A stretch of DNA of 20,920 nt, from positions 1-20,920 of IMG/VR virus record IMGVR_UViG_3300004461_000434; one strand, given 5' to 3'. Positions 3,275 through 19,402 of the stretch are shown in pieces (the stretch's first letter is position 1; the number at the start of each line of letters is the position of its first letter). The DNA comes from a virus. The translations under genes were made by a program, and so were the position numbers. The notes beneath the pieces were generated by a model. It saw only the letters and a program-made list of their open reading frames with translations, was not told where the DNA came from and made no database searches.

Positions 3275-5446
3275 ATGTTAACAACGCAGGAACTAATCAA
3301 CAACGCTAATTCGAGACAGCCGGACAACTCAAACGGCGAAATCTCAGCGGCAGACGTGAGGGAACAAAACAAAGATGTTGCCGTCTCTTCTTTCAATAAA
3401 GTAAGTGATAAACATCTAATTGGTTTAAGAAATTACGACCCGTCGAGAAGCTACGAAGTAGGCGAGGCGGTAACGTATGACAACGGCGGGGGCGAAATAC
3501 TTTGGAGATGCACCGAAGCAACAACGGGGGCGTTTAATCCCTCAAAGTGGGTCGAGGTAGGTTCGGGCGCCACATCTTATTCGTTAAGCGTGGACCCGTC
3601 CAAAACAAACGGTTTGGAGGTTTTAGGAACCAACCCGCAAACGGTAGGAATTGCGGTTGCTGCGGCAGGGCAAAGCGGAGCGTTGAGCGCAACAGATTGG
3701 GCGGAATTTAAAGCTAAACAAGCGGCTTTGGGATTCACACCTTTAAACGCAGTAGAAAAGGGGTTGCCTTTCGGAATCGCGCCATTGGATAGTTCGGGGG
3801 TTGTAGCGTTTGCGAATTTACCGTCATCATTAGCCGGGGCGCTAGACTATAAAGGAACATACGACGCATCGACAAACACACCAGCGATAACAGACGCAGG
3901 CGGAGCAATTAGGCAATATTACGTTGTAAGTACACCAGGAACGCAGGATTTCGGCTCCGGTTCGATTTCGTTAGGTTCGGGGGATTTTTTAATCCACGAC
4001 GGCGCGAAGTTCGACCACGTTTCAACGCAAGGCGCAGGTATAGAAAGCGTACAGGGCGACACGTCCACAAATATTGACTTAGGGAGCGGAACCGAAAATA
4101 AATTGGTTGCATGGAAACCGGGGAACAAATTTAAAGAGGTAGACATCGAAATGGTTGAGTCCGGAGGGGCTCAAAGTTTTGGGGTTGGTGGCTCGGCTTT
4201 TAGTGGTATAGATTTAAGTATAGGAGGCGAACCAACAGGTTTTACCACTTTAAATAACAGCATTACAAATGATTTGTACTTGATTGTTGGAAACAGTTTG
4301 TTTGCTACATTGGGAAACCCAAAAACAACGGGGTACCCTTCTGTAAGATTTCAACATTGTTTAAAAGTTGTCGGGTCAAACAGTTCAACAGAACCAAACA
4401 TCGAAACGGGTGAGTCGTCTAGTAATCACGCGGCTATTCGTGTAAATTACGGAGCGGCACCAACAAACCCACAACCGGGGGATGTATGGGCGACGTCGGA
4501 CGGTTTATTTTATAGATACGGAACACAAACGATTAATTTATCGACACCAAACGAGGGGGTGGTCCAAACAATTGTTGGGGGTTCAAACGTCGCGGTAAAC
4601 AACAGCGACCCACAAAACCCGGTGGTTTCAGCGTTCCCAACAACAACAGCGGGTCTATTGTCAAGAACTTACTTCACAGCGGACACGGAGACATTGAGTG
4701 CCGGAACTTTCTTTAAGTCAAATAGAGACGGCAAAGGAGTAGCAGAAACAGCCACGCAAACCGTAACGGTAAACGACAACGAAAAAGAGTTTTTTGCACA
4801 GGATTTAATTTCGGAGCCTTACCCAATAGAAACAACAATTTACGCGGGTAGCTATTCGGGTATTCTAAACGGAAAAGTAAGTGCGGCGTCCGCAGAGCAA
4901 AAGTTCTATGTTGAAATATATTTAACAGATGCAAACGGGACCCCGGTATCGAGCGGGATAACAGGCGCACCGGTTGGAGATTTGGGGGTTGAGGTTGTCG
5001 CAATCGCTGAAAGCGGTTTAATTGATCTAAGACAATCAGACGAAACACAATTTGCGATAACGGCAGAACTTACAGGGAATTTAACACTATCAACTTCTAA
5101 TCGTATTCGCTACCATGTAGCCGCGGAGAAATCCGGAGCAGCGGGGGGAGCGATTGATATTTCAATTAGTTACGGGTCGGGGCATGTTGCACATTTGGAC
5201 ATTCCAATACCATCGACAACAAACACGGTGATTAACACCGACGCGGCAACGTTTCCAAATGAAGCGACGCAGTACGATATTAACAGGAAGTTAAACACCG
5301 ACAAAATCGGAAGCACAACGGCAGGAGAGCCAACGGGCGCAACTGTTATCGGAAATATTGTTGAAATATCCCAAACAGATTACGACAGCGCAAAGACCGC
5401 AGGCACTTTAAACGCAACAACTTTATACTTGACGCCGGATGCTTAA
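3275..5446 (+). CDS. Long tail fibre / receptor-binding protein
   Basis: This is the longest tail gene here (723 residues). The N-terminus (about 1-45) is a polar helix of the type that attaches Bacteroidetes phage fibres. Residues about 54-95 (YDPSRSYEVGEAVTYDN, then WRCTEATTGAFNPSKWVEV) resemble a small carbohydrate-binding module as in chitin-binding CBM5/12 proteins. The rest is Gly/Ser/Thr-rich and beta-strand dominated. It includes a block PTNPQPGDVWATSDGLFYRYG (about 399-419) and a following segment of GGSNVAVNNSDPQNPVVSA that are common in phage fibres of this group. The function would be binding to the cell surface. The stop overlaps the start of the next tail gene by 8 bp. No enzyme motif was recognised. 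Confidence 0.75.
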   Translation: MLTTQELINNANSRQPDNSNGEISAADVREQNKDVAVSSFNKVSDKHLIGLRNYDPSRSYEVGEAVTYDNGGGEILWRCTEATTGAFNPSKWVEVGSGATSYSLSVDPSKTNGLEVLGTNPQTVGIAVAAAGQSGALSATDWAEFKAKQAALGFTPLNAVEKGLPFGIAPLDSSGVVAFANLPSSLAGALDYKGTYDASTNTPAITDAGGAIRQYYVVSTPGTQDFGSGSISLGSGDFLIHDGAKFDHVSTQGAGIESVQGDTSTNIDLGSGTENKLVAWKPGNKFKEVDIEMVESGGAQSFGVGGSAFSGIDLSIGGEPTGFTTLNNSITNDLYLIVGNSLFATLGNPKTTGYPSVRFQHCLKVVGSNSSTEPNIETGESSSNHAAIRVNYGAAPTNPQPGDVWATSDGLFYRYGTQTINLSTPNEGVVQTIVGGSNVAVNNSDPQNPVVSAFPTTTAGLLSRTYFTADTETLSAGTFFKSNRDGKGVAETATQTVTVNDNEKEFFAQDLISEPYPIETTIYAGSYSGILNGKVSAASAEQKFYVEIYLTDANGTPVSSGITGAPVGDLGVEVVAIAESGLIDLRQSDETQFAITAELTGNLTLSTSNRIRYHVAAEKSGAAGGAIDISISYGSGHVAHLDIPIPSTTNTVINTDAATFPNEATQYDINRKLNTDKIGSTTAGEPTGATVIGNIVEISQTDYDSAKTAGTLNATTLYLTPDA

Positions 5447-8035: not shown

Positions 8036-8158
8036 CCACCACAACCCAATTTGGACTATTTCAAATAACACCATAACAGAAACCCCCGCAAATTTAGTTT
8101 TAAACGGTTGGTGTTTCCCGTCCCCGAAAAACAGCCAAACAAGAATTGCAAAAATCAT
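8021..8158 (-). CDS. Very small membrane protein coupled to the HTH gene (45 aa)
   Basis: This minus-strand frame starts in an ATGA overlap with the stop of the HTH gene. Of its 45 residues, the first 11 (MIFAILVWLFF) and about 24-44 (AGVSVMVLFEIVQIGLWWLLI) are hydrophobic, with a short basic loop between. It looks like a one- or two-helix inner-membrane protein. The last 15 bp overlap the 3' end of the spanin-like gene tail to tail. Paired expression with a regulator apart from the lytic genes would fit a superinfection-exclusion or immunity role, but nothing in the sequence proves this. The coupling and the strongly hydrophobic composition are the reasons for believing in the gene. Confidence 0.5.
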   Translation of the reverse strand: MIFAILVWLFFGDGKHQPFKTKFAGVSVMVLFEIVQIGLWWLLIN

Positions 8159-8367
8159 TTGGATCCGCAAACGCAAATGTCGCAATTCCCGCAGCCTTTA
8201 GAGGTTCTAAATAGTTCGATATTCTCGAGGCAATAAACAACATGCCATTTCCCGAACTTTGTTTCTGTTTTCAATTTGTCCCGTTTACGTGTAACGCTTG
8301 ACGGGTTAACACCAATTATTTTCGCGAAGTGCGCGGGTATCAGTAATTCGTTTTCTTTTATTTCCAT
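8155..8367 (-). CDS. Small HTH DNA-binding protein (70 aa), minus strand
   Basis: From the ATG at 8367 the protein is 70 residues. A helix-turn-helix is readable at about residues 9-32 (LIPAHFAKIIGVNPSSVTRKRD: PAHFAKIIG as helix, NPSSVTRKRDKL as recognition helix), followed by a short beta wing. The end is rich in cysteine (GCGNCDICVCGSK, four Cys in the last 15 residues), which could bind metal. The frame is open upstream to a TTG, but the ATG is preferred because a minus-strand promoter lies just before it. It is one of only two minus-strand genes and faces the early operon across a shared promoter region, so it is a likely regulator of it. Confidence 0.7.
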   Translation of the reverse strand: MEIKENELLIPAHFAKIIGVNPSSVTRKRDKLKTETKFGKWHVVYCLENIELFRTSKGCGNCDICVCGSK

Positions 8368-8397: not shown

Positions 8398-8431
8398 CAA
8401 AAATAATTGCAATCATGTTTTGCATAACAAA
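8398..8431 (-). promoter_or_regulatory. Bacteroidetes-type promoter for the HTH gene
   Basis: On the minus strand TTTG (8431-8428) is followed after 22 bp by TATTTTTG (8405-8398), matching TTTG-N-TAnnTTTG. The spacer is at the long end. The predicted transcript begins near 8394 and has a leader of about 27 bases before the HTH start. The site overlaps the + strand promoter by 13 bp. Confidence 0.5.
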
Positions 8432-8442
8432 TATTTTTGCAT
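8418..8442 (+). promoter_or_regulatory. Operator-like direct repeat in the divergent promoter
   Basis: TTTTGCAT occurs at 8418-8425 and again at 8435-8442, 17 bp apart. The first copy covers the -33 element of the + strand promoter and the CAAA element of the minus promoter; the second touches the -7 element. A perfect palindrome ATTGCAAT lies at 8406-8413 next to the minus -7 element. These are candidate binding sites for the adjacent HTH protein. Confidence 0.45.
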
Positions 8443-8449
8443 AGCTTTG
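8419..8449 (+). promoter_or_regulatory. Bacteroidetes-type promoter of the early operon (leaderless)
   Basis: TTTG at 8419-8422, a 19-bp spacer, and TAGCTTTG at 8442-8449 give a full match to the Bacteroidetes -33/-7 form. The ATG of the first early gene begins 5 bases after the last base of the -7 element, so transcription is predicted to start at or one base before that ATG. Confidence 0.75.
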
Positions 8450-8453
8450 AGAC

Positions 8454-8732
8454 ATGGAAATAAAACAACTCATCCACGACGCCGCGCCGGTTTTGGCGGA
8501 CGTAATAAACAAAACCAACAGACCGAACCGTTTATGGTTGGCGAAATGGTTTTTGGAATTACCAAAAATAGAAGTGATTTGCCAAGAGAATTTCTTGAAG
8601 GAACTTTCACTTGATACGGGAATCGACATTGAAACATGTCGAGAGATAAAAAACGAATGGGTGTTGGACGAAACGAACGCGATTGATCAATGGGCGAAAA
8701 AAGTAGCGACAAGAACAAAACCGTTGACGTAA
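8454..8732 (+). CDS. First gene of the early operon, unknown function (92 aa)
   Basis: The 92-residue protein is predicted to be mainly helical, soluble and neutral to slightly acidic, without a recognised motif. It starts at the ATG placed directly after the -7 promoter element, so its message is predicted to be leaderless. The stop overlaps the start of the next gene (TAATG). As first gene under the regulated divergent promoter it is likely expressed early. Function unknown. Confidence 0.65.
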   Translation: MEIKQLIHDAAPVLADVINKTNRPNRLWLAKWFLELPKIEVICQENFLKELSLDTGIDIETCREIKNEWVLDETNAIDQWAKKVATRTKPLT

Positions 8733-8875
8733 TGGACGCAAAAGAATATTTCAAAGAACTACAAAAGCAAAGCGAGAAACCGGGGGGATTATTACGCCGG
8801 TTTATAAAAGCGGGCTTTAGCTTAGAGGAAAGAATGCTTGCAATGGGTAACAAACCACTTAAACCAATCAAATAA
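8732..8875 (+). CDS. Unknown small protein (47 aa)
   Basis: I use the ATG in the TAATG overlap with the preceding stop, giving 47 residues; a further upstream ATG at 8690 would lengthen the protein by 14 residues but would lie inside the preceding gene. The protein is charged and helical (MDAKEYFKELQKQSEKPGG, then LLRRFIKAGFSLEERMLAMG). No family is recognised. It is followed after 1 bp by the next early gene. Confidence 0.55.
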   Translation: MDAKEYFKELQKQSEKPGGLLRRFIKAGFSLEERMLAMGNKPLKPIK

Positions 8876-8876
8876 A

Positions 8877-9173
8877 ATGGATAAAAAAGAATTATTTCAA
8901 ATTGCTACATCGGTAAAAACAGCCGAGCAGCTAAAAGAGTTCGAGCCGAAAATAATAAAAGCGGTAACGGCAACGGTGGAAAGCGAGTTAATGCCGTTGC
9001 AATGGTTAGGGCACACCGACGTTCAATCCTTAGTGAATAAATGCGTAAACGCTTTCGCTGTTACATTACGGGATGAAATCGGAATCAGAGACGCCGAGTC
9101 CATGAAAATATTGGAGCGCGTGCGCATCGTATCAGAGAGAACAATCCAAAGGGACAAGCAAAAAACAAAATAA
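8877..9173 (+). CDS. Unknown helical early protein (98 aa)
   Basis: The ATG one base after the preceding stop gives 98 residues, predicted all-helical, with alternating charged and hydrophobic positions and a Lys/Arg-rich end (ERTIQRDKQKTK). No motif for an enzyme or for DNA binding is certain. It lies in a run of short early genes before the SSB-like gene, so a role in early takeover or DNA handling is possible but not shown. Confidence 0.6.
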   Translation: MDKKELFQIATSVKTAEQLKEFEPKIIKAVTATVESELMPLQWLGHTDVQSLVNKCVNAFAVTLRDEIGIRDAESMKILERVRIVSERTIQRDKQKTK

Positions 9174-9175
9174 CC

Positions 9176-9379
9176 ATGCAGCAATTTAAAGCGGAATACG
9201 TGTTGGGATATTACACAACGCAATTCGAAAAAAACAAACCAGGACAAGAGATCGAAACAATTTATGTCTCCGAGTTCCTGCGCGGTGCGCTAACTTTAGA
9301 GGGAATAAACAAAGAATGGCATAACATCGAAATTAAAACAGTTTTAAACGTTTCAGACTTTTGGGTCGACGTAGTATAA
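9176..9379 (+). CDS. Unknown early protein (67 aa)
   Basis: This short protein (MQQFKAEYVLGYYTTQFEK at the start) seems to be a small alpha/beta protein with alternating beta-like segments (IETIYVSEFLRG, then WHNIEIKTVLNVSDFWVDVV). It has no signal or membrane part. It begins 2 bp after the preceding gene and ends 26 bp before the SSB-like gene. I recognise no family. Confidence 0.6.
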   Translation: MQQFKAEYVLGYYTTQFEKNKPGQEIETIYVSEFLRGALTLEGINKEWHNIEIKTVLNVSDFWVDVV

Positions 9380-9405
9380 AAATTCACAATTAAACACAAA
9401 TTAAA

Positions 9406-10155
9406 ATGGCAAGAGGAATTACAATCGACACGGGGGTTTCGAATACGAAATACGTTAGAGTCTCACCGGACGGAAAATTCGTTCAACGAATTGGGTCAGC
9501 TATGACAAGCGAGGAACACGCGGCAAAGGATCACGAACGAACTAAGGACATAACAATCCGAACGCTAACAAAAGGACCTAACGAGGGAAAAATCGTTTGG
9601 GAACGTAAGATAAAAGAGTTTGAGGGGCAACTCGTGGACATAAGGTTCGACGACTCGGGAAACTACGGGGACGAATGGTCGTTAAGATTTGACGTAACAG
9701 AACCAGGAGCAGCGCCGGAGTTTATCAACTTACAGTTCAACGCGGATTCAGATATTGCAAATTCAATAGTTTTAAAAATGCCAAGCATAACGGATTTTGC
9801 ACAAGATATGCGCGTCATGGCGTACGCACTAGATACGGACCGAGAGGGTAACAAAATGGAATACGCACGTTTAGGGGTTGCGCTTTATGAGGGCGGAGCG
9901 GTTAAGGTATCGCCGTTTTTCACTAAGGACAACCCGGGAGGGATGCCGAAATGGAAAACAGTCACGGTCAACGGTAAAAAGGTGAAGGATAAAACCGACG
10001 CTTTGGAGTTTATCAAAAACATGATGTTGAACGAGATTTTACCAAAAGTTAAGGCGGTTGCACCAACTGAGCCGGAGCCAAAGCCGGAGGCAATTAAAGC
10101 GGTTGAACAGGCTTTTGGAGAGGGTGACGTGGCGAACGATGAATTGCCATTCTAA
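9406..10155 (+). CDS. Single-stranded-DNA-binding-like protein with SSB-type C-terminal tip
   Basis: The 249-residue protein has a beta-rich N-terminal and middle part (about 20-185, for example DITIRTLTKG, EGKIVWERKIKEFEG, YARLGVALYEGGAVKVSPFF), then a Pro/Glu-rich linker (about 217-232, PTEPEPKPEA). The last residues are GDVANDELPF, an acidic tip ending in Pro-Phe. Such a tip at the end of a disordered tail is the protein-docking signal of bacterial SSBs. It is therefore likely to bind ssDNA and to recruit replication or repair proteins. The body does not obviously match the Escherichia coli SSB fold, so the assignment rests on plan, tail and neighbourhood. Confidence 0.6.
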   Translation: MARGITIDTGVSNTKYVRVSPDGKFVQRIGSAMTSEEHAAKDHERTKDITIRTLTKGPNEGKIVWERKIKEFEGQLVDIRFDDSGNYGDEWSLRFDVTEPGAAPEFINLQFNADSDIANSIVLKMPSITDFAQDMRVMAYALDTDREGNKMEYARLGVALYEGGAVKVSPFFTKDNPGGMPKWKTVTVNGKKVKDKTDALEFIKNMMLNEILPKVKAVAPTEPEPKPEAIKAVEQAFGEGDVANDELPF

Positions 10156-10387
10156 AGTTTATTATTCGCCGGAATCATTGGATTGGTTCCGGCGTAATTA
10201 CAACGGCGAATGGAACCACGAAAAGTTTTGGATCATGTTTGATTGGTTGCAGAAACAAAAAAGGGGAATAAAAATACTATTCAAAAAAGAGAATTTACCA
10301 CTAATTCAATTCTACATTGACACGGTAAAAAACAAACCCGAATACGTGTGGGTCCAGGTAACAGGAAAGCACTTAAAAATAGGGTAA
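10139..10387 (+). CDS. Unknown early protein (82 aa)
   Basis: The start chosen overlaps the SSB-like gene by 17 bp (MNCHSKVYYSPESLDWFRRN); the frame is open further upstream inside that gene but would give an implausible overlap. The protein is aromatic- and Lys-rich, with helices and strands, for instance WNHEKFWIMFDWLQKQKRG. No family is recognised. It is the last protein gene before the structured RNA region and closes the early operon. Confidence 0.6.
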   Translation: MNCHSKVYYSPESLDWFRRNYNGEWNHEKFWIMFDWLQKQKRGIKILFKKENLPLIQFYIDTVKNKPEYVWVQVTGKHLKIG

Positions 10388-10399
10388 AGACATTAACGG

Positions 10400-10589
10400 G
10401 TTCGCGCTTTGCATGTTTCGAACGCTGCCCATTCAAAACAAATCGTGTAAACATGCAATCCGTGGGTGGTGTCAGAGCCTACCACGGAGCAAGAGATTAA
10501 GGATCGTGGTTGTTCCCTTAATCTCTAGTGACCGAGTGGTCACGTTTCAGCCGGAGGAATTGAGAAGCCTTTGACTATGTTAGATACTT
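10400..10589 (+). ncRNA. Candidate structured RNA with four consecutive hairpins
   Basis: The space after the early operon holds no gene but several perfect inverted repeats in a row: TGCATGTTT/AAACATGCA (10410-10418 with 10449-10457, 9 bp), TCCGTGG/CCACGGA (10459-10465 with 10482-10488, 7 bp), AGAGATTAAGG/CCTTAATCTCT (10492-10502 with 10516-10526, 11 bp) and GTGACC/GGTCAC closing a GAGT tetraloop (10528-10543). A rival pairing GTTCG/CGAAC (10400-10404 with 10419-10423) overlaps the first hairpin. An intrinsic terminator follows. The + strand is assumed because neighbours and terminator are on it. I know no matching RNA family; it could be a phage small RNA or a processed 3' region of the early transcript. 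Confidence 0.6.
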
Positions 10590-10599
10590 TATGAAAAAT

Positions 10600-10636
10600 A
10601 AAAACGCTTTTGGGGGTTCCTGGGAGCGTTTTTTGT
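10600..10636 (+). terminator. Intrinsic terminator after the structured RNA
   Basis: AAAAACGCT (10600-10608) pairs with AGCGTTTTT (10625-10633), a 9-bp stem around a 16-base loop, and the 3' side runs into a T tract. It would end the early operon together with the candidate RNA, and it isolates the next operon, which has its own promoter 30 bp further on. Confidence 0.75.
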
Positions 10637-10662
10637 TTATAAGCAAAAAAAAGTCCTCGCAT

Positions 10663-10674
10663 ACTTTGCAAAGT
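10663..10674. promoter_or_regulatory. Palindrome ACTTTGCAAAGT over the -33 element
   Basis: A perfect 12-bp palindrome covers the -33 element of the promoter that follows. A second inverted repeat, TCCTCGC (10654-10660) with GCGAGGA (10715-10721), encloses the whole promoter. Both are candidate regulator sites; the TTTGCA core is shared with the repeats in the divergent promoter. Confidence 0.4.
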
Positions 10675-10695
10675 AATTTGCTTTTTATACTTTTG
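10665..10695 (+). promoter_or_regulatory. Bacteroidetes-type promoter of the replication operon
   Basis: TTTG at 10665-10668, a 19-bp spacer and TACTTTTG at 10688-10695 match the -33/-7 form in full. Three bases later comes an ATGG (10699), so the transcript is predicted to start on that ATG. It drives the membrane protein, the ATPase and the operon behind them. Confidence 0.75.
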
Positions 10696-10698
10696 GGT

Positions 10699-10818
10699 AT
10701 GGAATCGCAACGGGGCGAGGAAATCAGATACAAATTAAGATGGAAACAAGAACAGAACCACAACACAAAAAACCAAATTGGGAGGTTTTCGCAATTTCGG
10801 TATTACTCACGGGATTAA
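10699..10818 (+). CDS. Leaderless short frame (39 aa), possible leader peptide
   Basis: The frame opens with the ATGG set 3 bases after the -7 promoter element, the same spacing as the VRR-NUC gene. It encodes 39 polar, Arg/Gln-rich residues (MESQRGEEIRYKLRWKQEQ at the start). The frame overlaps the first 79 bp of the next gene in another frame. It could be a real leaderless gene, a leader peptide that controls the next start, or chance. Only the promoter spacing supports it. Confidence 0.35.
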   Translation: MESQRGEEIRYKLRWKQEQNHNTKNQIGRFSQFRYYSRD

Positions 10819-11129
10819 TCATGTACAATTGCATGGGTAACGACGGCAACAAGTCACCCAAAAGCGAGTCAACAAAGAAAATCGAATGCTACGTACAAGC
10901 AAAGGAGATTGTAAAAAACAAACTTCGTTCACCGTCAACCGCAGAGTTCCCAGGGGCTTACGAATACGTCAAACATATTACAAAGATTGACGAAAACACG
11001 TTCGAAATCAATTCTTATGTGGATAGCCAAAACGGGTTCGGCGCCGTTGGTAGGTCGTTTTTTACAATTAGAATTGTTTATGCGAACGACGAATTGAGCT
11101 CATGGTCAAATTTTAAAATAAAAAAATAA
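10740..11129 (+). CDS. Membrane-anchored protein with a small C-terminal beta domain (129 aa)
   Basis: After a charged N-terminus there is one hydrophobic helix at about residues 15-31 (VFAISVLLTGLIMYNCM), then a linker and a domain from about 47 to 125. The domain contains the block AKEIVKNKLRSPSTAEFPG and SYVDSQNGFGAVGRSFFTIRIVY; this 'LKSPSTAEFP ... VDAQNSFGA' pattern recurs in small secreted or anchored proteins of bacteria and phages whose role is unknown to me. It is the first annotated gene after the promoter and overlaps the ATPase gene by one base (TAATG). Confidence 0.7.
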   Translation: METRTEPQHKKPNWEVFAISVLLTGLIMYNCMGNDGNKSPKSESTKKIECYVQAKEIVKNKLRSPSTAEFPGAYEYVKHITKIDENTFEINSYVDSQNGFGAVGRSFFTIRIVYANDELSSWSNFKIKK

Positions 11130-12316
11130 TGCAAATTCAAAGCGTAGAAATTCAGAATTTCAAGTCGATTAAAAACGTTGCAAAGCAATTAAACGGAAAC
11201 AACGTATTTTTGGTAGCACCAAACGGGATGGGTAAAACGTCTTTTATAGACGCGTGTTTTGGAGCGATGCCGGAACAGCCATTGAGAGACGGGGCGAAAA
11301 GTGGCAACGTAAAAATAAATATTGGAGACTACATAGTTGAGTTCAAGTTCTCAGCAAGGAGCCAAAAACCAAAAATGAACATTTTCGACGCCAACGGAAA
11401 CGCGCAAACAAAGCCAGCAACGTTGTTCAAAGAGTTATTCGGTGTTACAGACTTCAATATTGACACTTTCATAAATAAACCGGTATCAAAACAGATTGAT
11501 TTCATTAAAGAAATCACGGGGATTGATTGGTCCGACGTAGACGCGAGATTCAAAGAACTATACGACGAAAGACGATTCAAAAGTCGAGAGTTAAAAGAGC
11601 TAGAGGGCGAGATAGCAGGGCGCTTTTTTGATACCGAGATCAAACCGGTTGATGTTTCAGAAGTTACCGAGAGACTAAACGCCGCAATGAAGAACAATGC
11701 CAATATTGACCGCATAAACTCGGGAGTGGAAAACAAAATGGCGGAACGGGCATCGATAGCCGAGCAAATAAGAGTTTTAAACGAACGAGTGTTTGACCTC
11801 GACAACGAAATTTCAAAGGGTGAAACGTGGCTAAAAGACCACCAACAAACTCCGGTGTCGTCAATTCAAAAGGAACTAAACGAGGCGGCGGAACACAACG
11901 CAAGCATCCAAGAAAACACCAAAGTTGGAGAACTTAGGGACAAAGCCGGGACCGTAGCAACCGAGGTTGACGAAATCCAAAACGAAATGGACGAGATAAC
12001 AGAAGCCAAAAAACGAGAGTTGGAGAACACGCCATTGCCGGTTTCCGGATTGGAACTTGACGACGACAAATTGTTATTAGATGGATTACCGTTTAACGAT
12101 AACCAAATAAACACCGCCCGCAGAATCATTGCAGGCTTAGAACTTCAATTCCAACTTATGCAGGACGTGAAAATTGCAAGGTTCGACGGTTCATTGTTAG
12201 ACTCTAAAAACTTAAAAGAAGTGGAAGCCTGGGCAGAACAAAGAGGTATTCAACTATTTGTGGAACTTGTGGACCGTAACGGCGACGACTTGAAAATTGA
12301 GGTATGCGAAAAATAA
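11129..12316 (+). CDS. SMC/RecF/SbcC-like ATPase
   Basis: The 395-residue protein starts with the SMC/RecF-type N-terminal strand (IQSVEIQNFKSIKNV) and Walker A APNGMGKTS (residues 30-38). Residues about 140-310 are charged and helical, suited to a short coiled-coil arm. The C-terminal part has LPFNDNQINTARRIIAG (where an ABC signature would be expected), then VKIARFDGSLLDSKNLKEVEAW, the Walker B and D-loop region. The Glu normally next to the Walker B Asp is not seen (RFDGS), and the signature is not LSGGQ. The family binds DNA and changes shape with ATP; such phage proteins are usually placed in recombination or end processing. No nuclease partner of the SbcD type is in the window. Confidence 0.75.
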   Translation: MQIQSVEIQNFKSIKNVAKQLNGNNVFLVAPNGMGKTSFIDACFGAMPEQPLRDGAKSGNVKINIGDYIVEFKFSARSQKPKMNIFDANGNAQTKPATLFKELFGVTDFNIDTFINKPVSKQIDFIKEITGIDWSDVDARFKELYDERRFKSRELKELEGEIAGRFFDTEIKPVDVSEVTERLNAAMKNNANIDRINSGVENKMAERASIAEQIRVLNERVFDLDNEISKGETWLKDHQQTPVSSIQKELNEAAEHNASIQENTKVGELRDKAGTVATEVDEIQNEMDEITEAKKRELENTPLPVSGLELDDDKLLLDGLPFNDNQINTARRIIAGLELQFQLMQDVKIARFDGSLLDSKNLKEVEAWAEQRGIQLFVELVDRNGDDLKIEVCEK

Positions 12317-12561
12317 AAAAGCTAACAGAAAAGGAAAAACTAGAGCGTCGAGAATATGGCGCTCTAGTTAATGCCAGGATAACAGCTTTAAAAATCAGTA
12401 AAGTAGCATTGGCGGGATTCATAGGGATTAGACCGGACCAATTTTGGAGAATAACAGACGGGCAGCGCCCAACGTCTCCGGAGGTAAAAAAAGCAATTGC
12501 GGTTGTTTTTGAAGAATACGAGAAAGCAGAAAAGAGAATAAAAGAAAAAATATTTAAGTAA
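12304..12561 (+). CDS. Small HTH (Cro/XRE-like) protein (85 aa)
   Basis: The protein has a Lys/Glu-rich N-terminal arm, then a probable helix-turn-helix at about residues 29-58 (LKISKVALAGFIGIRPDQFWRITDGQRP), of the lambda-repressor-like kind: helix 2 'KVALAGFIGI', helix 3 'RPDQFWRITDG'. The C-terminal helix is strongly charged. It overlaps the ATPase gene by 13 bp and the next gene by one base. A transcription regulator or a small DNA-binding accessory protein is likely; its target cannot be told. Confidence 0.6.
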   Translation: MRKIKKLTEKEKLERREYGALVNARITALKISKVALAGFIGIRPDQFWRITDGQRPTSPEVKKAIAVVFEEYEKAEKRIKEKIFK

Positions 12562-12797
12562 TGAAAATCAAATTCACTCCCGAAATGACGGGACAACACA
12601 GGGTTCGAAATATAGGAGTCGGGCAAACAATCAACGGCGTTGCAATGATACAACAGACATACAAAGTTGTTGAGGTTTTGCCATCCGGTAAAGCTATGGT
12701 GTCTCTAGTTGACGACAACCGACGAGAACGGTTAACGGTCCGAGTAATGGAGCCGGAAATAATGACAATCGAGGAACTAGCGGATTTATGCAAGTGA
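12561..12797 (+). CDS. Unknown small beta-rich protein (78 aa)
   Basis: The chain alternates short strands (YKVVEVLPSGKAMVSLVDDN, then RERLTVRVMEPEIM) and ends in a short helix, suggesting a small beta-barrel or SH3-like fold. I recognise no family. It overlaps the HTH gene by one base and the next gene by 10 bp, so it is made from the same message. Confidence 0.6.
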   Translation: MKIKFTPEMTGQHRVRNIGVGQTINGVAMIQQTYKVVEVLPSGKAMVSLVDDNRRERLTVRVMEPEIMTIEELADLCK

Positions 12798-13054
12798 TTT
12801 ACTGCGGGGCGTTGCGTGTTCAAACGAACGCCCACATAAAACCGAGAGGGAAACGAAAAGTGGTACCGGAACACCTCAAAGAATATCGCAACGTCGATTG
12901 GTGCGTGTGGACAGGTGAGGACATCGAAGCATTAAACAAACGGGCGCACATGATTTCGATGATTTGCAAATTAACAGGAATTAAAAACCGTGAAGCAATC
13001 AAAATTGTGGCTATTGTCCACAAAAAAGCGGTTGGAAACACTAAAGTTTATTAA
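12788..13054 (+). CDS. Unknown basic protein (88 aa)
   Basis: A Lys/Arg-rich protein (RGKRKVVPEHLKEYRN) with a helical C-terminal half; the helix-loop-helix at about residues 55-78 (MISMICKLTGIKNREAIKIVAIV) may be a DNA-binding element. No family recognised. It lies between two small unknown genes upstream of the helicase and overlaps its upstream neighbour by 10 bp. Confidence 0.55.
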   Translation: MQVIYCGALRVQTNAHIKPRGKRKVVPEHLKEYRNVDWCVWTGEDIEALNKRAHMISMICKLTGIKNREAIKIVAIVHKKAVGNTKVY

Positions 13055-13055
13055 A

Positions 13056-13253
13056 ATGAACAACGCGACACAATACCACGTCATCGGAGAGGGTAAACGG
13101 ATCATCTATTTTCTACGCCACGAAATTACCGCAGAAGAACGGGCGCGAGTGATAACGAGACAGGGTCACCGAGAATCCGGAACACTCATGCCGGACGACA
13201 TTTTCAAGAAGTTTAAAGAATGGATCAAACAGGATAACAGGTTTAAAAAATGA
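13056..13253 (+). CDS. Unknown small protein before the helicase (65 aa)
   Basis: The ATG one base after the preceding stop is chosen (MNNATQYHVIGEGKRIIYFL); the frame is open for 66 bp upstream, within the previous gene. The protein is basic, with a short strand region and a C-terminal helix (MPDDIFKKFKEWIKQDNRF). No motif is recognised. Its stop overlaps the helicase start (ATGA), so both are probably translated together. Confidence 0.6.
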   Translation: MNNATQYHVIGEGKRIIYFLRHEITAEERARVITRQGHRESGTLMPDDIFKKFKEWIKQDNRFKK

Positions 13254-14965
13254 TCAAATTATACGACTACCAAAGCCACATCGAAAGCGAGTTGGACAAG
13301 CACGACACCGAAAATTGTTGCGTGCAGCTTGCGACCGGTGGGGGGAAAACTTTTACTTTTGCGCACTACCTAATTGAGCAGGCAAAGAAAACAACCACGG
13401 TTCGTTTCATGGTTTTGGTTCACAGGGAAGAACTATTGCAACAAACAATCGAGTCGTTTAGAGATTTAGGACAGGACCCCGACGTTGTTTGCGCCACAGG
13501 AACAACACTCGAATTGCAGCCACGGAACTATGGCGAGGTAACAAAGGAACCTCGATTTGTCGTCGCTATGGTTGAGACTTTAGCGGCACGAATAGAAAAG
13601 GGGTTTACGTTCCCAGGAGTTGACACCGTAGTTATTGACGAGTGCCACCGCGGGGAGTTCTTCAAAATCACGGGGGGTTGGGAATACTCAAAGAAAACGG
13701 GGCAACTCGAATACATCGACGGGCTATTGCAACACCGCAGGCGAATTGGATTTACAGCAACACCGGTGTTTATGGAAAAGAAACGCGCAATGGCTTTGTA
13801 TTACGACAAGCTAATTGCAGGCGCAGACATCGACGAACTAATCAATTTCGGGTCGTTGGTCCAACCAAATACCTACGTGGCACCAATAGACCCCCAGTCG
13901 TTCCAAAACTTAGAAGCTGCAAACAACGCCGCCGGTTTCTCGTCCCCCTCATTAAACGGGATATTCACCACCCCGGAAATGATCACGTCAGTTTTTACCG
14001 AGTACATGCAACACGGGTTCGGGCGTCAAACTCTAGTTTTCGCCGTGTCAGTAAAACATGCCAATTTGCTACATGAGCATTTTATAAAAAAAGGAATCAA
14101 CGCCCGCGTCTACCATTCCAAAGGGGACAACATCGAAAGCCGCAGGGAGGTGGTACAATGGTTCAAAAGCAACCCGGACGCCGTGTTGATCAACGTGGAC
14201 GTTTTCACAACGGGGTTCGATTGTAAAACTGTTGGTTGCGTACTTCTTGCAAGGTCTACGCGTTCACTCGCTTTGTTCCTGCAGATAGCAGGGCGCGGGG
14301 GTCGCTCTTATTCCGGGGACGACTACATCAAAACATCATGGAACTTTGTAGACTTAGGGTTCAACATCGAGGGCGTTGAGGGCGTTTTCAGAGGTCACGG
14401 AACATGGGAAAAACCACGCGCAAAGCAATGGCAAAAAGAGTGGAACAACTTTTCGTTGGAAACCGAGGCAATGCCAACGAAAGCGTGTCCCGAGTGCGAA
14501 CACGAAAACAGGATAACGGCGAAAAGCTGCGAAAAGTGCGGAACAGAATTTCCAAAATCGGTTAACGTTCCCGAACTTTTGGCGCGTCAAGATTCAAAAC
14601 TTTATTCGAAAACAAACGAAGACAAGGAAATCGAAACGATTTGCAGGCACGCTATAAAAGCCATGCACCGCAGGAGCCACAAACCAAGCCGCGCAATTTA
14701 TTTGATGATCGAAAAGCTATTCGAGACAACGATAGAACGCCACCAAATAACGCCGGAGCAATGGGACACGAACGAAACCAAACTAAGAACAAGACTTTGG
14801 CAACTATTCGAAAAATACTATCTAACCATGTGCGAAATTGACCCCGAAACCTACAAGCCGCAGCGGATCACAACAGGGTTTTGGCAAAAGGAGTTCGCAG
14901 AAAAGACAAATATATTTTGGATAGAAAGAAAAGAACAACTAAAATTGCAATCAATAAGCGCGTGA
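13250..14965 (+). CDS. SF2 DEAD/H-box helicase with zinc ribbon
   Basis: The 571-residue protein shows the motifs of superfamily 2 in order: a Q-like start (LYDYQSHIESEL), motif I ATGGGKT (28-34), motif II DECH (130-133), motif III TATP (169-172), motifs IV-V in the second RecA domain (LVFAVSVKHANLL, VLINVDVFTTGFD), and motif VI QIAGRGGR (345-352). This is the RecG/UvrB-type or type III restriction-like layout found in many phage DNA helicases. After it, CPEC and CEKC (Cys 413, 416, 427, 430) form a zinc ribbon. The final 130 residues are helical without a known domain. It would unwind DNA in phage replication or recombination, next to the VirE-type primase-helicase. Confidence 0.85.
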   Translation: MIKLYDYQSHIESELDKHDTENCCVQLATGGGKTFTFAHYLIEQAKKTTTVRFMVLVHREELLQQTIESFRDLGQDPDVVCATGTTLELQPRNYGEVTKEPRFVVAMVETLAARIEKGFTFPGVDTVVIDECHRGEFFKITGGWEYSKKTGQLEYIDGLLQHRRRIGFTATPVFMEKKRAMALYYDKLIAGADIDELINFGSLVQPNTYVAPIDPQSFQNLEAANNAAGFSSPSLNGIFTTPEMITSVFTEYMQHGFGRQTLVFAVSVKHANLLHEHFIKKGINARVYHSKGDNIESRREVVQWFKSNPDAVLINVDVFTTGFDCKTVGCVLLARSTRSLALFLQIAGRGGRSYSGDDYIKTSWNFVDLGFNIEGVEGVFRGHGTWEKPRAKQWQKEWNNFSLETEAMPTKACPECEHENRITAKSCEKCGTEFPKSVNVPELLARQDSKLYSKTNEDKEIETICRHAIKAMHRRSHKPSRAIYLMIEKLFETTIERHQITPEQWDTNETKLRTRLWQLFEKYYLTMCEIDPETYKPQRITTGFWQKEFAEKTNIFWIERKEQLKLQSISA

Positions 14966-15066
14966 CATCCACAACGAACGCGTAAAGAAATTATTTAAAC
15001 CTCAAATGAAACGGCGAGTGGATGCGCTGCGGATTTTGGGGTTTTTGTCATTTAAAAGAATACCGC

Positions 15067-17337
15067 ATGGAAACAATAATGAGTCTATACGACCACGTTA
15101 AAACCAACATTAAAAACCGGGATATAACACTTGAAGCATACATCGAGCGCATCAAAGACGGGGACCACCAAAAAACGGTGATGTTGGCACGCCAGGAACT
15201 ACTCAACAACAACAACCCCAAAGGGTACAACGAACACAAATCGAAGTTGCCAGGTGTTACAGGCTGCGGCGTCATCGACGGCGAAACACGAACCGACGCA
15301 AACACAATTCTAAACGGTTACATTGTTTTGGACATCGACAGAAAGCCGACAAGCCCAGGAGACGACAGGATAACAAACGAAGAAATCGAGGCGGTTGCAA
15401 ACGATCCACACACAAAGTTGGTACACCGCACGCCGTCCGAGTGGGGAATTTGTGTTCTCGTAAAAATCAACCCCGACCGTTTCCTCGACAGCTTCAAAGG
15501 TTTAGAACTTTACTACATGGAAAAGTTCGGAATGAGCATTGACGCTAGCTGCAAAAACCCTGGGCGCTTTCGCTTTCTGAGTTACGACCCCTCAATAATC
15601 GTAAACGATAAATGTCACACGTTCAAAAAATATCCTAAAAAAGTAAAGATAAAGGAGCCGGCAATCATCGTTGTAAAGTCAGACTTCGACGCTATGGTTG
15701 CAGAGGTGCAACAACGGGGTGTCGACTTAACGAACGACGACTATGCACGCTTTCTCCGAATTGGTTTTGCTATTGCAACCGAATTTGGTGAGGGTGGCAG
15801 AGGCTACTTTCACGCAATAACCGGTAACGCCATAAAGTACAACCAAAAAACAGCAGACAAACAGTTCACCCACTGTTTAAACGGTGACGGGGGCGTCTCA
15901 ATTGGAACGCTTTACTACTACGCACTAGACGCAGGAATTGAAATCTATTCCAAAGAAACCACAAACATGATTCGCACCGTGTCCCAACACAAACGACGGG
16001 GGCATTTCGAAGCCGGAGACGACGCGATAGACGAAGTGTTCACCCGTTACACCAAAACAAACGAAATCGAGGACAGCGAAGAAAATCGAGAACTATTCAA
16101 AAAGATAGCAAACTCAAAAAAGGACCTCGAAAAAGCGTTGAAGTTTGAGAACGAAAGCGAAACGGCAATTTTGCAAAACTTCATTCGAACAGAATATCCA
16201 TTGAGGTTGAACGAGTACACCAATAAAAAAGAATTAGAGGGGGGAAAGGTACTTGACGACCGAGGCATGAATAAAATATGGATAGATGCCGACATCGCAA
16301 TGGCTTTCGATGTCTCGCAATCAAAGGTTCGCGCGATAATGGACAACACCGACGTCGATTCGTTCAACCCGTTGCGCGAGTTCCTACACGAAAACAAAGA
16401 CATTCAAACAGAAAACGAGGTCCAACGATTAGTTGACACACTCAGCATTGAGGGTGACATAGCAAAGCGCGACCTCATTAAAAGCATGGTAAAAAAGTGG
16501 TTCGTTTCAATGTTCACAGTTTTAGAAAACGATTATTCACCGCTCGTTTTGGTGTTGCAAGGGGCGCAGGGCGACGGGAAATCGTATTGGTTTGAACACT
16601 TGTTACCTATTGAGTTGAAACGTTATTTTGCAATGTCAGAGTTTAACGGGACAAAAGACGACTTATCAATGATGCACGCAAACCTTTTATTGGTAAATGA
16701 CGAGTTCGGGGGGCAAACAATAAAGGATTCGCAGAAATTCAAAGAAATGGTATCTAAGAACTTTGTAAAGTACCGCCCACCATACGGACGCGAGGAACAG
16801 GAGTTCAAACGAATTGCGTTGTTCGCAGGAACTACAAACGAGGAAACTTTTTTAAATGACGCCACAGGAAACAGACGTATTGTTCCCGTGAGGTTGAAAC
16901 CCAACGAAGTGTGGACCGACGGGGACGGGTGGCAATACTCAATTGATCAAAAAGCATTTAACGCCATTAACAAAACGGCGCTAATTGTTGAGGCGTGGAA
17001 TCTTTACAAATCCGGTTTTGATTTCCGAGTGCTGCGCGAGGACATCGAAGCACTAGAGGACAACACCAAAGATTTTCAAATTCAATCCCAGGAGCACGAA
17101 TTGGTGTTTAAACACTTTAGAGTGTTCGACGACGGAAAAATGACGTCTACGGACGTAAAAGTTGCCTTAATTGCGAAATCCGGCATTACTCAGTTAGGCA
17201 CCAAAAAAATCAGTGCGGCACTAAAGGAATTAGGGGCAATTCAAAAGAACAGCGCGGGGCGTTGGTGGAACGTTAGGCTGTTAGGCGAGGACGAGAGCGA
17301 CCCCGTACCGTGGCAAATGCCGGATTTCAACGGGTAA
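15067..17337 (+). CDS. VirE-type primase-helicase
   Basis: I favour the ATG at 15067 (METIMSLYDHV; 756 residues); 15079 is an alternative, and the frame is open up to 15022. Domains in order: an N-terminal BT4734/VirE_N-like part with KSKLPGVTGCG and YIVLDIDRKP (about 58-100) and NPGRFRFLSYDPS, whose DxD-type motif recalls archaeo-eukaryotic primases; a PriCT_2-like part (about 217-290, LTNDDYARFLRIGFA); and a VirE P-loop helicase with GAQGDGKS (499-506) and LLVNDEFGG (about 540-549), followed by a sensor-like FAGTTNEETFLND. The protein probably primes and unwinds at the phage origin; a terminator and a repeat-rich region follow directly. No DNA polymerase is in this window. Confidence 0.85.
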   Translation: METIMSLYDHVKTNIKNRDITLEAYIERIKDGDHQKTVMLARQELLNNNNPKGYNEHKSKLPGVTGCGVIDGETRTDANTILNGYIVLDIDRKPTSPGDDRITNEEIEAVANDPHTKLVHRTPSEWGICVLVKINPDRFLDSFKGLELYYMEKFGMSIDASCKNPGRFRFLSYDPSIIVNDKCHTFKKYPKKVKIKEPAIIVVKSDFDAMVAEVQQRGVDLTNDDYARFLRIGFAIATEFGEGGRGYFHAITGNAIKYNQKTADKQFTHCLNGDGGVSIGTLYYYALDAGIEIYSKETTNMIRTVSQHKRRGHFEAGDDAIDEVFTRYTKTNEIEDSEENRELFKKIANSKKDLEKALKFENESETAILQNFIRTEYPLRLNEYTNKKELEGGKVLDDRGMNKIWIDADIAMAFDVSQSKVRAIMDNTDVDSFNPLREFLHENKDIQTENEVQRLVDTLSIEGDIAKRDLIKSMVKKWFVSMFTVLENDYSPLVLVLQGAQGDGKSYWFEHLLPIELKRYFAMSEFNGTKDDLSMMHANLLLVNDEFGGQTIKDSQKFKEMVSKNFVKYRPPYGREEQEFKRIALFAGTTNEETFLNDATGNRRIVPVRLKPNEVWTDGDGWQYSIDQKAFNAINKTALIVEAWNLYKSGFDFRVLREDIEALEDNTKDFQIQSQEHELVFKHFRVFDDGKMTSTDVKVALIAKSGITQLGTKKISAALKELGAIQKNSAGRWWNVRLLGEDESDPVPWQMPDFNG

Positions 17338-17344
17338 AATAATT

Positions 17345-17372
17345 AGCCATCCTTTAAAGGGTGGCTTTTTTT
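17345..17372 (+). terminator. Intrinsic terminator after the primase-helicase gene
   Basis: AGCCATCC pairs with GGGTGGCT (8 bp, one G-T pair) around a TTTAAA loop, followed by seven T. It lies 7 bp after the stop codon and ends the replication operon. Confidence 0.85.
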
Positions 17373-17377
17373 ATACA

Positions 17378-17695
17378 ATCCGAACAAAACGATTTGTTCG
17401 TTTTTTTGATTTGTTCGCCCATTTGTTCGGATGAAAAAGCACGTTTCAACAGTGTTAAGGGCGTTTTAGTATAATATTTTATTAAAAAGAACAAACGAAC
17501 AAATCAAATTGAATAAAACTCTCTAGTAAAAAATAAAATCCGTCATTGCCATTTCTTGTTTGTTATTAATTATACAGAAACAAAAGTTTGAAAAAAAACA
17601 TGTTTATTTCGTTCGTTTTGTTCGTAACACCTAAAAAACGCTATTTGGGTTGAGATAGGGCTGTTTTTTGTAGTGAACAGTTTTTGTTCAGAACA
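17378..17695. other. AT-rich region with TTTGTTCG iterons; candidate replication origin
   Basis: No gene lies here. ATTTGTTCG stands at 17392, 17409 and 17421. The ends ATCCGAACAAA (17378) and TTTGTTCGGAT (17422) form a perfect 11-bp inverted repeat enclosing the cluster. Inverted copies GAACAAA and CGAACAAAT follow at 17489-17504, TTTCGTTCG and TTTTGTTCG at 17607 and 17616, and TGAACA/TGTTCA at 17674/17685. Between them the DNA is very AT-rich (for example 17469-17486). Repeated short sites beside AT-rich DNA, directly after a primase-helicase gene, are the usual plan of an iteron-type origin. That these are the sites of an initiator is inference. Confidence 0.55.
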
Positions 17696-17733
17696 GAACT
17701 AATTCTTTTATTATGTTCTTTTATGCAATATTA

Positions 17734-17765
17734 TTTGCTTTTTTGGCTCATGTTGGCTAGTTTTG
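17734..17765 (+). promoter_or_regulatory. Bacteroidetes-type promoter of the VRR-NUC gene (leaderless)
   Basis: TTTG at 17734-17737, a 20-bp spacer and TAGTTTTG at 17758-17765. The ATG of the nuclease gene begins 4 bases after the end of the -7 element, which places the predicted transcription start on the A of the ATG. It is also the nearest promoter upstream of the cassette array. Confidence 0.75.
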
Positions 17766-17768
17766 AGC

Positions 17769-18224
17769 ATGGATAAGAAAAGAACACCCCCAAAAGGTCG
17801 ACCGATGACCGAATCACAACTGCAAACAAAGTGCGTTTCGTGGTTCAACTCTAATTTTCCCGAATTACGGGGTTTATTGTATCACAACTATAACAACCCC
17901 CGGAACGCTATTTCCGGCGCGAGGTTGAAAGCCCAGGGGCTTGTCGCAGGTATTCCGGACTTGTCACTCGCTGCGGGTTCAATGTTATACATTGAATTGA
18001 AAGCAGAGGGCGGGCGCGTGTCGATAGAACAAAAATCTATACACCGTCAATTGGAGGCGTCGGGGTTTGAAGTCGAAATATGTTGGAACCTCGAAGAATT
18101 TGTCCGCGCGGTTGTTGATCACTTAGACGGTTTCAATTTTATCGAATATTCGTACGCGTGGAACTACGACGAAAACAAATTAGAGCGAGAGGGACCGCAA
18201 GGGATTAATTTTATAGGGGTTTAA
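17769..18224 (+). CDS. VRR-NUC nuclease
   Basis: I start at the ATG just after the promoter (151 residues); a TTG two codons earlier overlaps the -7 element and is unlikely. The fold pattern of VRR-NUC is plain: Glu15 in TESQLQ, then GIPDL (Asp64), IELK (Glu76 and Lys78) and a Gln in SIEQK (88), the PD-(D/E)XK set. VRR-NUC domains act as structure-specific or single-strand nucleases (as in FAN1 and many phage proteins) and probably process replication intermediates. The gene stands between the candidate origin and the cassette array and has the CG-rich codon use of the phage genes. Confidence 0.85.
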   Translation: MDKKRTPPKGRPMTESQLQTKCVSWFNSNFPELRGLLYHNYNNPRNAISGARLKAQGLVAGIPDLSLAAGSMLYIELKAEGGRVSIEQKSIHRQLEASGFEVEICWNLEEFVRAVVDHLDGFNFIEYSYAWNYDENKLEREGPQGINFIGV

Positions 18225-18599: not shown

Positions 18600-18652
18600 C
18601 TATAACGTTAAGTATAAACGGTCGTTTTAATGCCGTTTATACAGTGTTACCC
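18600..18652 (+). repeat. attC-like site 2
   Basis: R'' box CTATAAC (18600-18606) then G; arms GTATAAACGG (18612-18621) and CCGTTTATAC (18633-18642) pair perfectly over 10 bp around an 11-base loop; R' box GTTACCC (18646-18652). The R'' TATAAC matches six bases of the reverse complement of the site 1 R' box, which would be its partner in the excised circle. Confidence 0.75.
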
Positions 18653-18674
18653 TTAGTTTTAAAAAAGATTTAAT

Positions 18675-19340
18675 ATGACAGAACAAACGATTTATAACGA
18701 AGATTGGCAAATAGGCACGAAGCGTATTGCAAATGATAGCGTTGACTTAGTAGTAACTGACCCACCTTACGGAATGGCATTTCAAAGCAACCACCGAAAA
18801 GTAAAACATAAAAGTATCCAAAACGACACGAACCTTGATTGGTTGGGTGGTTGGGTTAAAGAACTAAAACGTGTTTGTAAAGACGAAGCACACCTTTACA
18901 TTTTTTGCTCGTGGCATCACATAGATAAATTTAAGCAAGAAGTAGGTGCTTTATTTAATGTGAAAAATATTTTGATTTGGGAAAAGAACAATACTGGAAT
19001 GGGTGACCTTGAAGGAGATTATGCACCGAAATATGAAATGATACTTTTCTGTAGTAACGGAACAAAAAAATTGAAAGGTGGGCGTGATTCTAATATACTA
19101 AAAGCTAAAAGAACACAGAATGAAAACCACCCAACAGAGAAACCAATTAACCTAATAAGCTATTTGATTGAAAAAAGCAGTAACAAAGGTGATTTAGTTT
19201 TGGATACTTTTGCTGGGAGTTGTGGAACTGCGATTGCAAGTAGACAAAAAGAAAGGAATTGTATTTGCTTTGAAATTGAAGAAGATTACTGCAAAGTAGC
19301 GAATGAAAGATTATTTGCAACATCACTATCCCTTTTTTAA
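18675..19340 (+). CDS. Cassette 2 gene: DNA methyltransferase (N6-adenine or N4-cytosine)
   Basis: The 221-residue protein is a beta-type DNA methyltransferase. Motif IV DPPY (29-32) contacts the target base. HPTEKP (152-157) is motif X. LDTFAGSCG (176-184) is motif I, which binds S-adenosylmethionine; it has Cys where most relatives have Gly (FxGSG). Order DPPY before FxG is that of the beta group. DPPY is compatible with N6-adenine or N4-cytosine targets. No recognition domain or cognate restriction gene is seen, so an orphan enzyme that protects phage DNA from host restriction is likely. It fills a 750-bp cassette. Confidence 0.9.
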   Translation: MTEQTIYNEDWQIGTKRIANDSVDLVVTDPPYGMAFQSNHRKVKHKSIQNDTNLDWLGGWVKELKRVCKDEAHLYIFCSWHHIDKFKQEVGALFNVKNILIWEKNNTGMGDLEGDYAPKYEMILFCSNGTKKLKGGRDSNILKAKRTQNENHPTEKPINLISYLIEKSSNKGDLVLDTFAGSCGTAIASRQKERNCICFEIEEDYCKVANERLFATSLSLF

Positions 19341-19343
19341 TAT

Positions 19344-19402
19344 TAAGGGTAACGTTGAGTACATGAGCCTGTGCGTAGCATGGCTTATGTATATTGTTAT
19401 AC
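19344..19402 (+). repeat. attC-like site 3
   Basis: R'' box TAAGGGTAAC (19344-19353) is the exact reverse complement of the first 10 bases of the left junction of its cassette (18646-18655). Arms ACATGAGCC (19361-19369) and GGCTTATGT (19382-19390) pair over 9 bp with one G-T. R' box GTTATAC (19396-19402). It starts 3 bp after the methyltransferase stop codon. Confidence 0.85.

Follow-up and report, generated by a model that had tools for sequence, protein, structure and literature searches.

Three exact -33/-7 promoters of the Bacteroidota type were found in a phage sequence, each with an ATGG three or four nucleotides after its -7 box. We propose that they are ordinary Bacteroidota primary-sigma promoters heading three phage operons, the first of which would give a leaderless mRNA, the second a conventionally leadered one, and the third either of the two. 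Taken as a whole, we consider this explanation somewhat likelier to hold than to fail. The boxes, their spacing, the position of a conserved gene behind the second promoter, and the existence in other phages of a class of boxes placed exactly four nucleotides before an ATG (hereafter N4, other distances being named N3, N5 and so on) are established observations.

The window, i.e. the whole stretch of DNA analysed here (virus record IMGVR_UViG_3300004461_000434, 20.9 kb), contains tail, endolysin, recombination, replication, VRR-NUC nuclease, methyltransferase and terminase small subunit genes. Related phages infect Flavobacteriia (Nonlabens, Flavobacterium, Cellulophaga, Tenacibaculum), which makes a Bacteroidota host with its TTTG/TAnnTTTG promoter a reasonable assumption to begin with. 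The only near match of the window in the phage collection is Tenacibaculum phage JQ (MT002873.2), with 92% identity over 18612-19356 in the DNA methyltransferase region. Record L163 (IMGVR_UViG_3300004448_000019) is 99% identical to the window over 9387-15123, with most of the differences concentrated in the helicase gene (13275-14270); upstream of this match its genes are unrelated to those of the window, and judging from the alignment it is a modular recombinant. A search of the whole window against Rfam returned no family at the gathering threshold, and near promoter 2 a chance-level match only.

Table 1. Features at the three promoter sites of the window.
Site	Feature	Positions	Strand	Remarks
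1	promoter 1, -33 element TTTGC	8419..8423	+	spacer 19
1	rival -7 box TATTTTTG	8432..8439	+	would yield a leader of ~9-10 nt
1	promoter 1, -7 element TAGCTTTG	8442..8449	+	followed by AGAC, then ATGG 8454 (N4)
1	in-frame TGA stop	8448..8450	+	directly 5' of ATG 8454
1	92-aa ORF	8454..8732	+	first gene of operon 1; predicted leaderless
2	promoter 2, -33 element TTTGC	10665..10669	+	spacer 19; within palindrome ACTTTGCAAAGT (10664-10675)
2	promoter 2, -7 element TACTTTTG	10688..10695	+	followed by GGT, then ATGG 10699 (N3)
2	39-codon ORF	10699..10818	+	starts at the ATGG adjoining promoter 2; overlaps the next gene in another frame
2	conserved 129-aa protein (phrog_13160)	10740..11129	+	first gene of operon 2
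3	promoter 3, -33 element TTTGC	17734..17738	+	spacer 20
3	promoter 3, -7 element TAGTTTTG	17758..17765	+	followed by AGC, then ATGG 17769 (N3)
3	VRR-NUC nuclease ORF	17769..18224	+	start at ATG 17769 (leaderless) or internal ATG 17805 (~35 nt leader)

An exact search for TTTG-N18..21-TAnnTTTG on both strands of the window returned sites 1, 2 and 3 and no others (Table 1). The three promoter strings, their positions, their TTTGC -33 elements and the ATGG after four, three and three nucleotides are all as the earlier note had described them. All three sites agree exactly with the sigma-ABfr promoter (-33 TTTG, -7 TAnnTTTG, spacer of about 19-21 nt), with spacers here of 19-20 nt, and they differ from it in extending the -33 element to TTTGC and, at two sites out of three, in a disfavoured G at the third position of the -7 box. 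The revised -7 consensus of F. johnsoniae is TAHHTTTG, with a frequency of G at that position described as "virtually zero" (PMC6847099); it fits site 2, and not sites 1 and 3, which begin with TAG. In the survey described below, G at this position was depleted and yet present, in 18 of 230 leadered boxes and 1 of 43 N4 boxes, versus a background of 16%. Both promoters 1 and 2 contain a possible candidate operator, as judged from repeat structure: the direct repeat TTTTGCATA in promoter 1 (at 8418 and 8435, with no other copies in the window), and the 12-bp palindrome around the -33 element of promoter 2.

How surprising is this arrangement? Markov-resampled windows contain 0.87 full promoters on average and 6% of them reach three, so that the number of promoters by itself is unremarkable. 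Full promoters with an ATG at N3 or N4, however, occur at 0.015 per resampled window, versus 3 observed, and given three promoters the probability that all have such an ATG is about 2e-5 before correction for look-elsewhere effects. As the offsets were picked post hoc, we estimate that a fairer value lies nearer 1e-3 to 1e-4, and an accident is still unlikely, in keeping with what had been claimed for this spacing. The base preceding the ATG is moreover a pyrimidine at all three sites (Y-ATGG). We also observed the same box-ATG geometry where a promoter is not expected: at 540-555, in the interior of the tail operon, TAATTTTG-AAAA-ATGG adjoins a gene that begins at 552, with no -33 element.

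Published maps indicate where transcription would begin. Most F. johnsoniae promoters have 4 or 5 nt separating the -7 box and the start (PMC6847099); the F. psychrophilum box occupies -12 to -5, which leaves 4 nt to the start (PMC9723704). With a spacing of 4 nt, RNA polymerase at promoter 1 would initiate about 4 nt beyond TTTG, at the A of ATG 8454, and ribosomes would have to start on a 5'-terminal AUG. The same rule places +1 on the T of the ATG at sites 2 and 3, unless a 3-nt spacing is used. These transcription starts are predictions from the DNA, and any use of 5'-terminal AUGs or of 70S ribosomes is inferred.

At site 1, the in-frame TGA makes 8454 the earliest possible start, and no longer ORF exists. 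The first 13 codons of this ORF score 7.1 bits for the codon usage of this phage, above 78% of true-gene segments, and no off-frame segment of known genes reaches that score. The stop codon overlaps the start of the next gene (TAATG), a pattern of a translated operon. No homologue of the 92-aa protein was found in IMG/VR, nor by tblastn at E values up to 5. Given the TGA and the coding-like codons, operon 1 is predicted to open with a gene starting at ATG 8454, and if the box at 8442 is the -7 element of promoter 1, the mRNA of operon 1 must be leaderless. We therefore regard leaderless expression from ATG 8454 as probable on sequence grounds. Facing promoter 1, a small divergent ORF lies on the minus strand at 8158-8367 (70 aa, MEIKENELLIPAHFAKIIGVNPSSVTRKRD...); by eye it is HTH-like, and it had no match in Pfam or PHROG.

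At site 2, the reading frame opened by ATG 10699 is not coding-like overall (-0.13 bits/codon). The gene at 10740 is coding-like from its start, and its match to phrog_13160 begins at residue 14 of the protein. Because the 10740 gene is conserved and the 10699 frame is not coding-like, operon 2 should have a leader of about 40 nt: promoter 2 would produce a conventionally leadered mRNA for the 10740 gene, and the ATG at its 5' end would not be the start of that gene. The leaderless reading, as far as codon usage and conservation tell, fails here. Site 2 is unchanged in L163, which is too similar to reveal selection and, with a match limited to 9387-15123, is uninformative for sites 1 and 3. 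Between operons 1 and 2, the non-coding stretch 10395-10640 contains strong hairpins (10409-10458 and 10492-10526, folding z -3.2) and ends, just 5' of promoter 2, in a terminator-like repeat (10595-10638). It is a candidate structured RNA by its predicted folding; it matched nothing in Rfam, and the phage collection contained no similar DNA.

At site 3 the start may lie at either of two ATGs in the same frame. Translation from 17769 would give MDKKRTPPKGRP-MTES and from 17805 MTES. The VRR-NUC homologues of L001, L139, L143 and L145 begin at the residue corresponding to ATG 17805, whereas others begin 3-14 residues further upstream. The 12-codon extension between 17769 and 17805 has poor codon scores, and the codons just after 17805 are equally poor. 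Promoter 3 would thus be leaderless from 17769 or leadered by about 35 nt from 17805; the former is plausible from the box position, if not quite to be expected. Several of the VRR-NUC homologues carry a short extension at the N-terminus and have a TAnnTTT[GA] box 3-5 nt before the ATG. TAnnTTTA boxes lying 3-6 nt 5' of an ATG were seen in L139, L143, L147-L153, L006 and L008, before VRR-NUC and some operon-internal genes. As promoters, those before the VRR-NUC starts of uncultured viruses were rejected, since they are without a TTTG -33 element and since such boxes also precede operon-internal genes; perhaps they are a translation signal or another type of promoter. Upstream of site 3, the non-coding region of ~400 bp between primase and VRR-NUC (17378-17692) contains many copies of TTTGTTCG in both orientations and a perfect 13-nt inverted pair (17405-17417/17496-17508); it looks iteron-like and is possibly an origin or a regulatory region.

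We surveyed the distance between the -7 box and the first ATG opening an ORF of 50 or more codons in IMG/VR virus contigs, whose Bacteroidota hosts were inferred from the promoter signal itself. The raw count of a scan at fixed distance (TTTGC-N18..20-TAnnTTTG-N3-ATGG) was discarded, as most of the matches listed lie inside genes, and a scan with TTTGC and TAnTTTTG was dropped because it gave too few intergenic promoters. Scans that left the box-to-ATG distance free, and a bait-excluded count, took the place of the fixed-N3 scan. In the baited scan (TTTGTA-N16..18-TATATTTG, 2-32 nt to ATGG), 12 of 67 starts lay at exactly N4, bins 7 to 15 held 0-2 each, and a broad class followed at 16-30; in all 12 N4 sites the base before the ATG was a pyrimidine. 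For the bait-excluded count all bait matches were removed, ATG was used in place of ATGG, and the ORF start had to lie within 60 nt. The 80 full promoters so obtained, from a sample partly fetched with the bait and in which contigs stay promoter-enriched even after removal of its matches, were distributed as N2:1, N3:1, N4:11, N5:2 and N6-7:0, then a broad leadered class, versus a flat background for the scrambled boxes used as control.

Without the -33 requirement, N4 held 43 sites versus 11 at N3 and 13 at N5. A TTTG at spacer 19/20 was present before 10 of the 43 N4 boxes (P=2e-7) and 42 of 230 leadered boxes, versus 2.8% of boxes without an ORF. With a -33 element equally frequent in front of both kinds of box, N4 boxes are promoters as much as the leadered boxes are. 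Two genes at N4 sites start where their families start: a C5-cytosine methylase aligns from Pfam position 1, and a YopX protein from profile position 1.

The check on related phages that the earlier note had proposed was extended to 12 cultured Bacteroidota phages (ORFs of at least 40 codons), so that the TAnnTTTG-N4-ATG peak is now seen in both uncultured contigs and cultured phages. Out of 88 sites, N3 held 4, N4 8 and N5 4, versus about 0.6 per neighbouring bin. They include the annotated starts of Cellulophaga phage phi38:2 gp05 (at 3671) and gp15 (at 12862), of the Polaribacter phage P12002L terminase gene and of pippi8-1 gp047, and the N3 site of a Leeuwenhoekiella phage tail fibre gene at 30526. 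Most of these N3-N5 sites are without a TTTG -33 element, and a part of them may not be promoters but A/T-rich contexts for translation. Among the eight cultured phages sampled first, every exact -33/-7 promoter close to a gene was leadered.

The position of the N4 peak agrees with the 4 nt that published maps give between box and transcription start (PMC6847099, PMC9723704). Leaderless promoters, as predicted from this geometry, are a real minority class in these samples, amounting to about one fifth of promoter-like boxes with a nearby ORF, which supports the idea that they occur in Bacteroidota phages. Most promoters in these phages are leadered. In hosts, 5.5% of F. psychrophilum mRNAs are leaderless (PMC9723704), about 3.7% of B. 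thetaiotaomicron leaders are under 10 nt (PMC7366714) and about 13% of F. johnsoniae leaders are 10 nt or less (PMC6847099). A phage strategy, as had been suggested, is not demonstrated, since host maps already contain 3.7-5.5% of mRNAs that are leaderless or have leaders under 10 nt, and phage promoters are mostly leadered.

Could all three transcripts nevertheless begin at, or one base before, the AUG of their first gene, making three leaderless operons as originally proposed? That full promoters are followed by Y-ATGG at N3 or N4 in three cases out of three, with the same pyrimidine as in the baited N4 sites, speaks for this, as do the N3 and N5 sites of cultured phages, the Leeuwenhoekiella tail fibre gene among them, and the VRR-NUC homologues with short extensions behind a box. 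The proposal stands as likely at site 1; at site 2 it meets an ATG that lies 5' of the conserved 10740 gene, out of frame with it and in a frame that is not coding-like, and at site 3 homologues from four lineages that start at the position of 17805, which leaves either ATG there. The published 4-nt spacing would also set +1 within the ATG at both N3 sites. We consider it improbable that all three operons are leaderless. The opposite reading, fairly unlikely in our estimate, takes the N3/N4 ATGs as coincidence: site 1 would be near-leaderless through the TATTTTTG box, and sites 2 and 3 leadered by ~40 and ~35 nt. This box matches TAHHTTTG, unlike TAGCTTTG, the -33 signal of F. johnsoniae promoters is weak (PMC6847099), and the exact promoters of the first eight cultured phages are leadered. 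Against this reading, the 8432 box has no TTTG at spacers 18-21, while the 8442 box has one at 19, a spacing enriched several-fold in promoter-like boxes, and the joint chance of the three ATGs counts against coincidence.

More improbable still, in our view, is that site 1 is leaderless while the 5'-terminal AUGs of sites 2 and 3 load ribosomes upstream of leadered starts. In E. coli, the mRNAs of ptrB, iscR and rcnR have such a 5'-uAUG; these AUGs bind 70S ribosomes, and some alter downstream expression (PMC4965119). Site 2 has a matching layout: ATG 10699 stands at the predicted 5' end, 41 nt before 10740 and in another frame. It differs from the E. coli cases in that the leadered start is without a Shine-Dalgarno sequence, that the uAUG does not recur in relatives, and that it is known here from sequence alone. 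Among 117 leadered full promoters of Bacteroidota-type viruses, an upstream ATG was found once at N3 and never at N4; it is not enriched, and we rejected the 5'-terminal uAUG as a general strategy. L163 keeps site 2, but its similarity is too high to be informative. Such a uAUG is thus no widespread device, and at site 2 it could be a coincidence.

The explanation that we favour, with promoter 1 leaderless, promoter 2 leadered and promoter 3 either, has parallels in known systems. Leaderless mRNAs are already published for Bacteroidota hosts, and promoter 1 would add a predicted phage example. The two share the -7 box, the distance of ~4 nt from box to start, an AUG at or beside the predicted 5' end, and the status of a minority class; in the hosts, though, 5' ends were mapped, and here a phage is concerned. 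The lambda cI mRNA is a leaderless phage mRNA. Like it, the 8454 gene is predicted to be read from a 5'-terminal AUG, with another sigma factor, in a host without Shine-Dalgarno use, and for a 92-aa protein of no known family.

Bacteroidota barely use Shine-Dalgarno pairing, and leaderless mRNAs, in which the start codon is removed from every upstream signal, bear on how their ribosomes choose start codons without it. The rule found here (-7 box, exactly 4 nt, ATG) predicts leaderless phage genes and so provides test cases in cultured phages, such as gp05 and gp15 of Cellulophaga phage phi38:2 and the terminase gene of Polaribacter phage P12002L. Automatic start calls in Bacteroidota phages should be checked against promoters, and promoter calls against gene starts, as the misleading promoter-adjacent ATG of site 2 illustrates. 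A more tentative proposal, which we hold to be doubtful rather than likely, is that Bacteroidota viruses use a precisely spaced leaderless class, TAnnTTTG-N4-ATG, at about three times the host frequency (the 19% of the survey being predicted with a simple ORF caller at distances up to 60 nt, and the host rates coming from published direct mapping), promoter 1 being one member. If true, this would define a set of phage genes translated from 5'-terminal AUGs.
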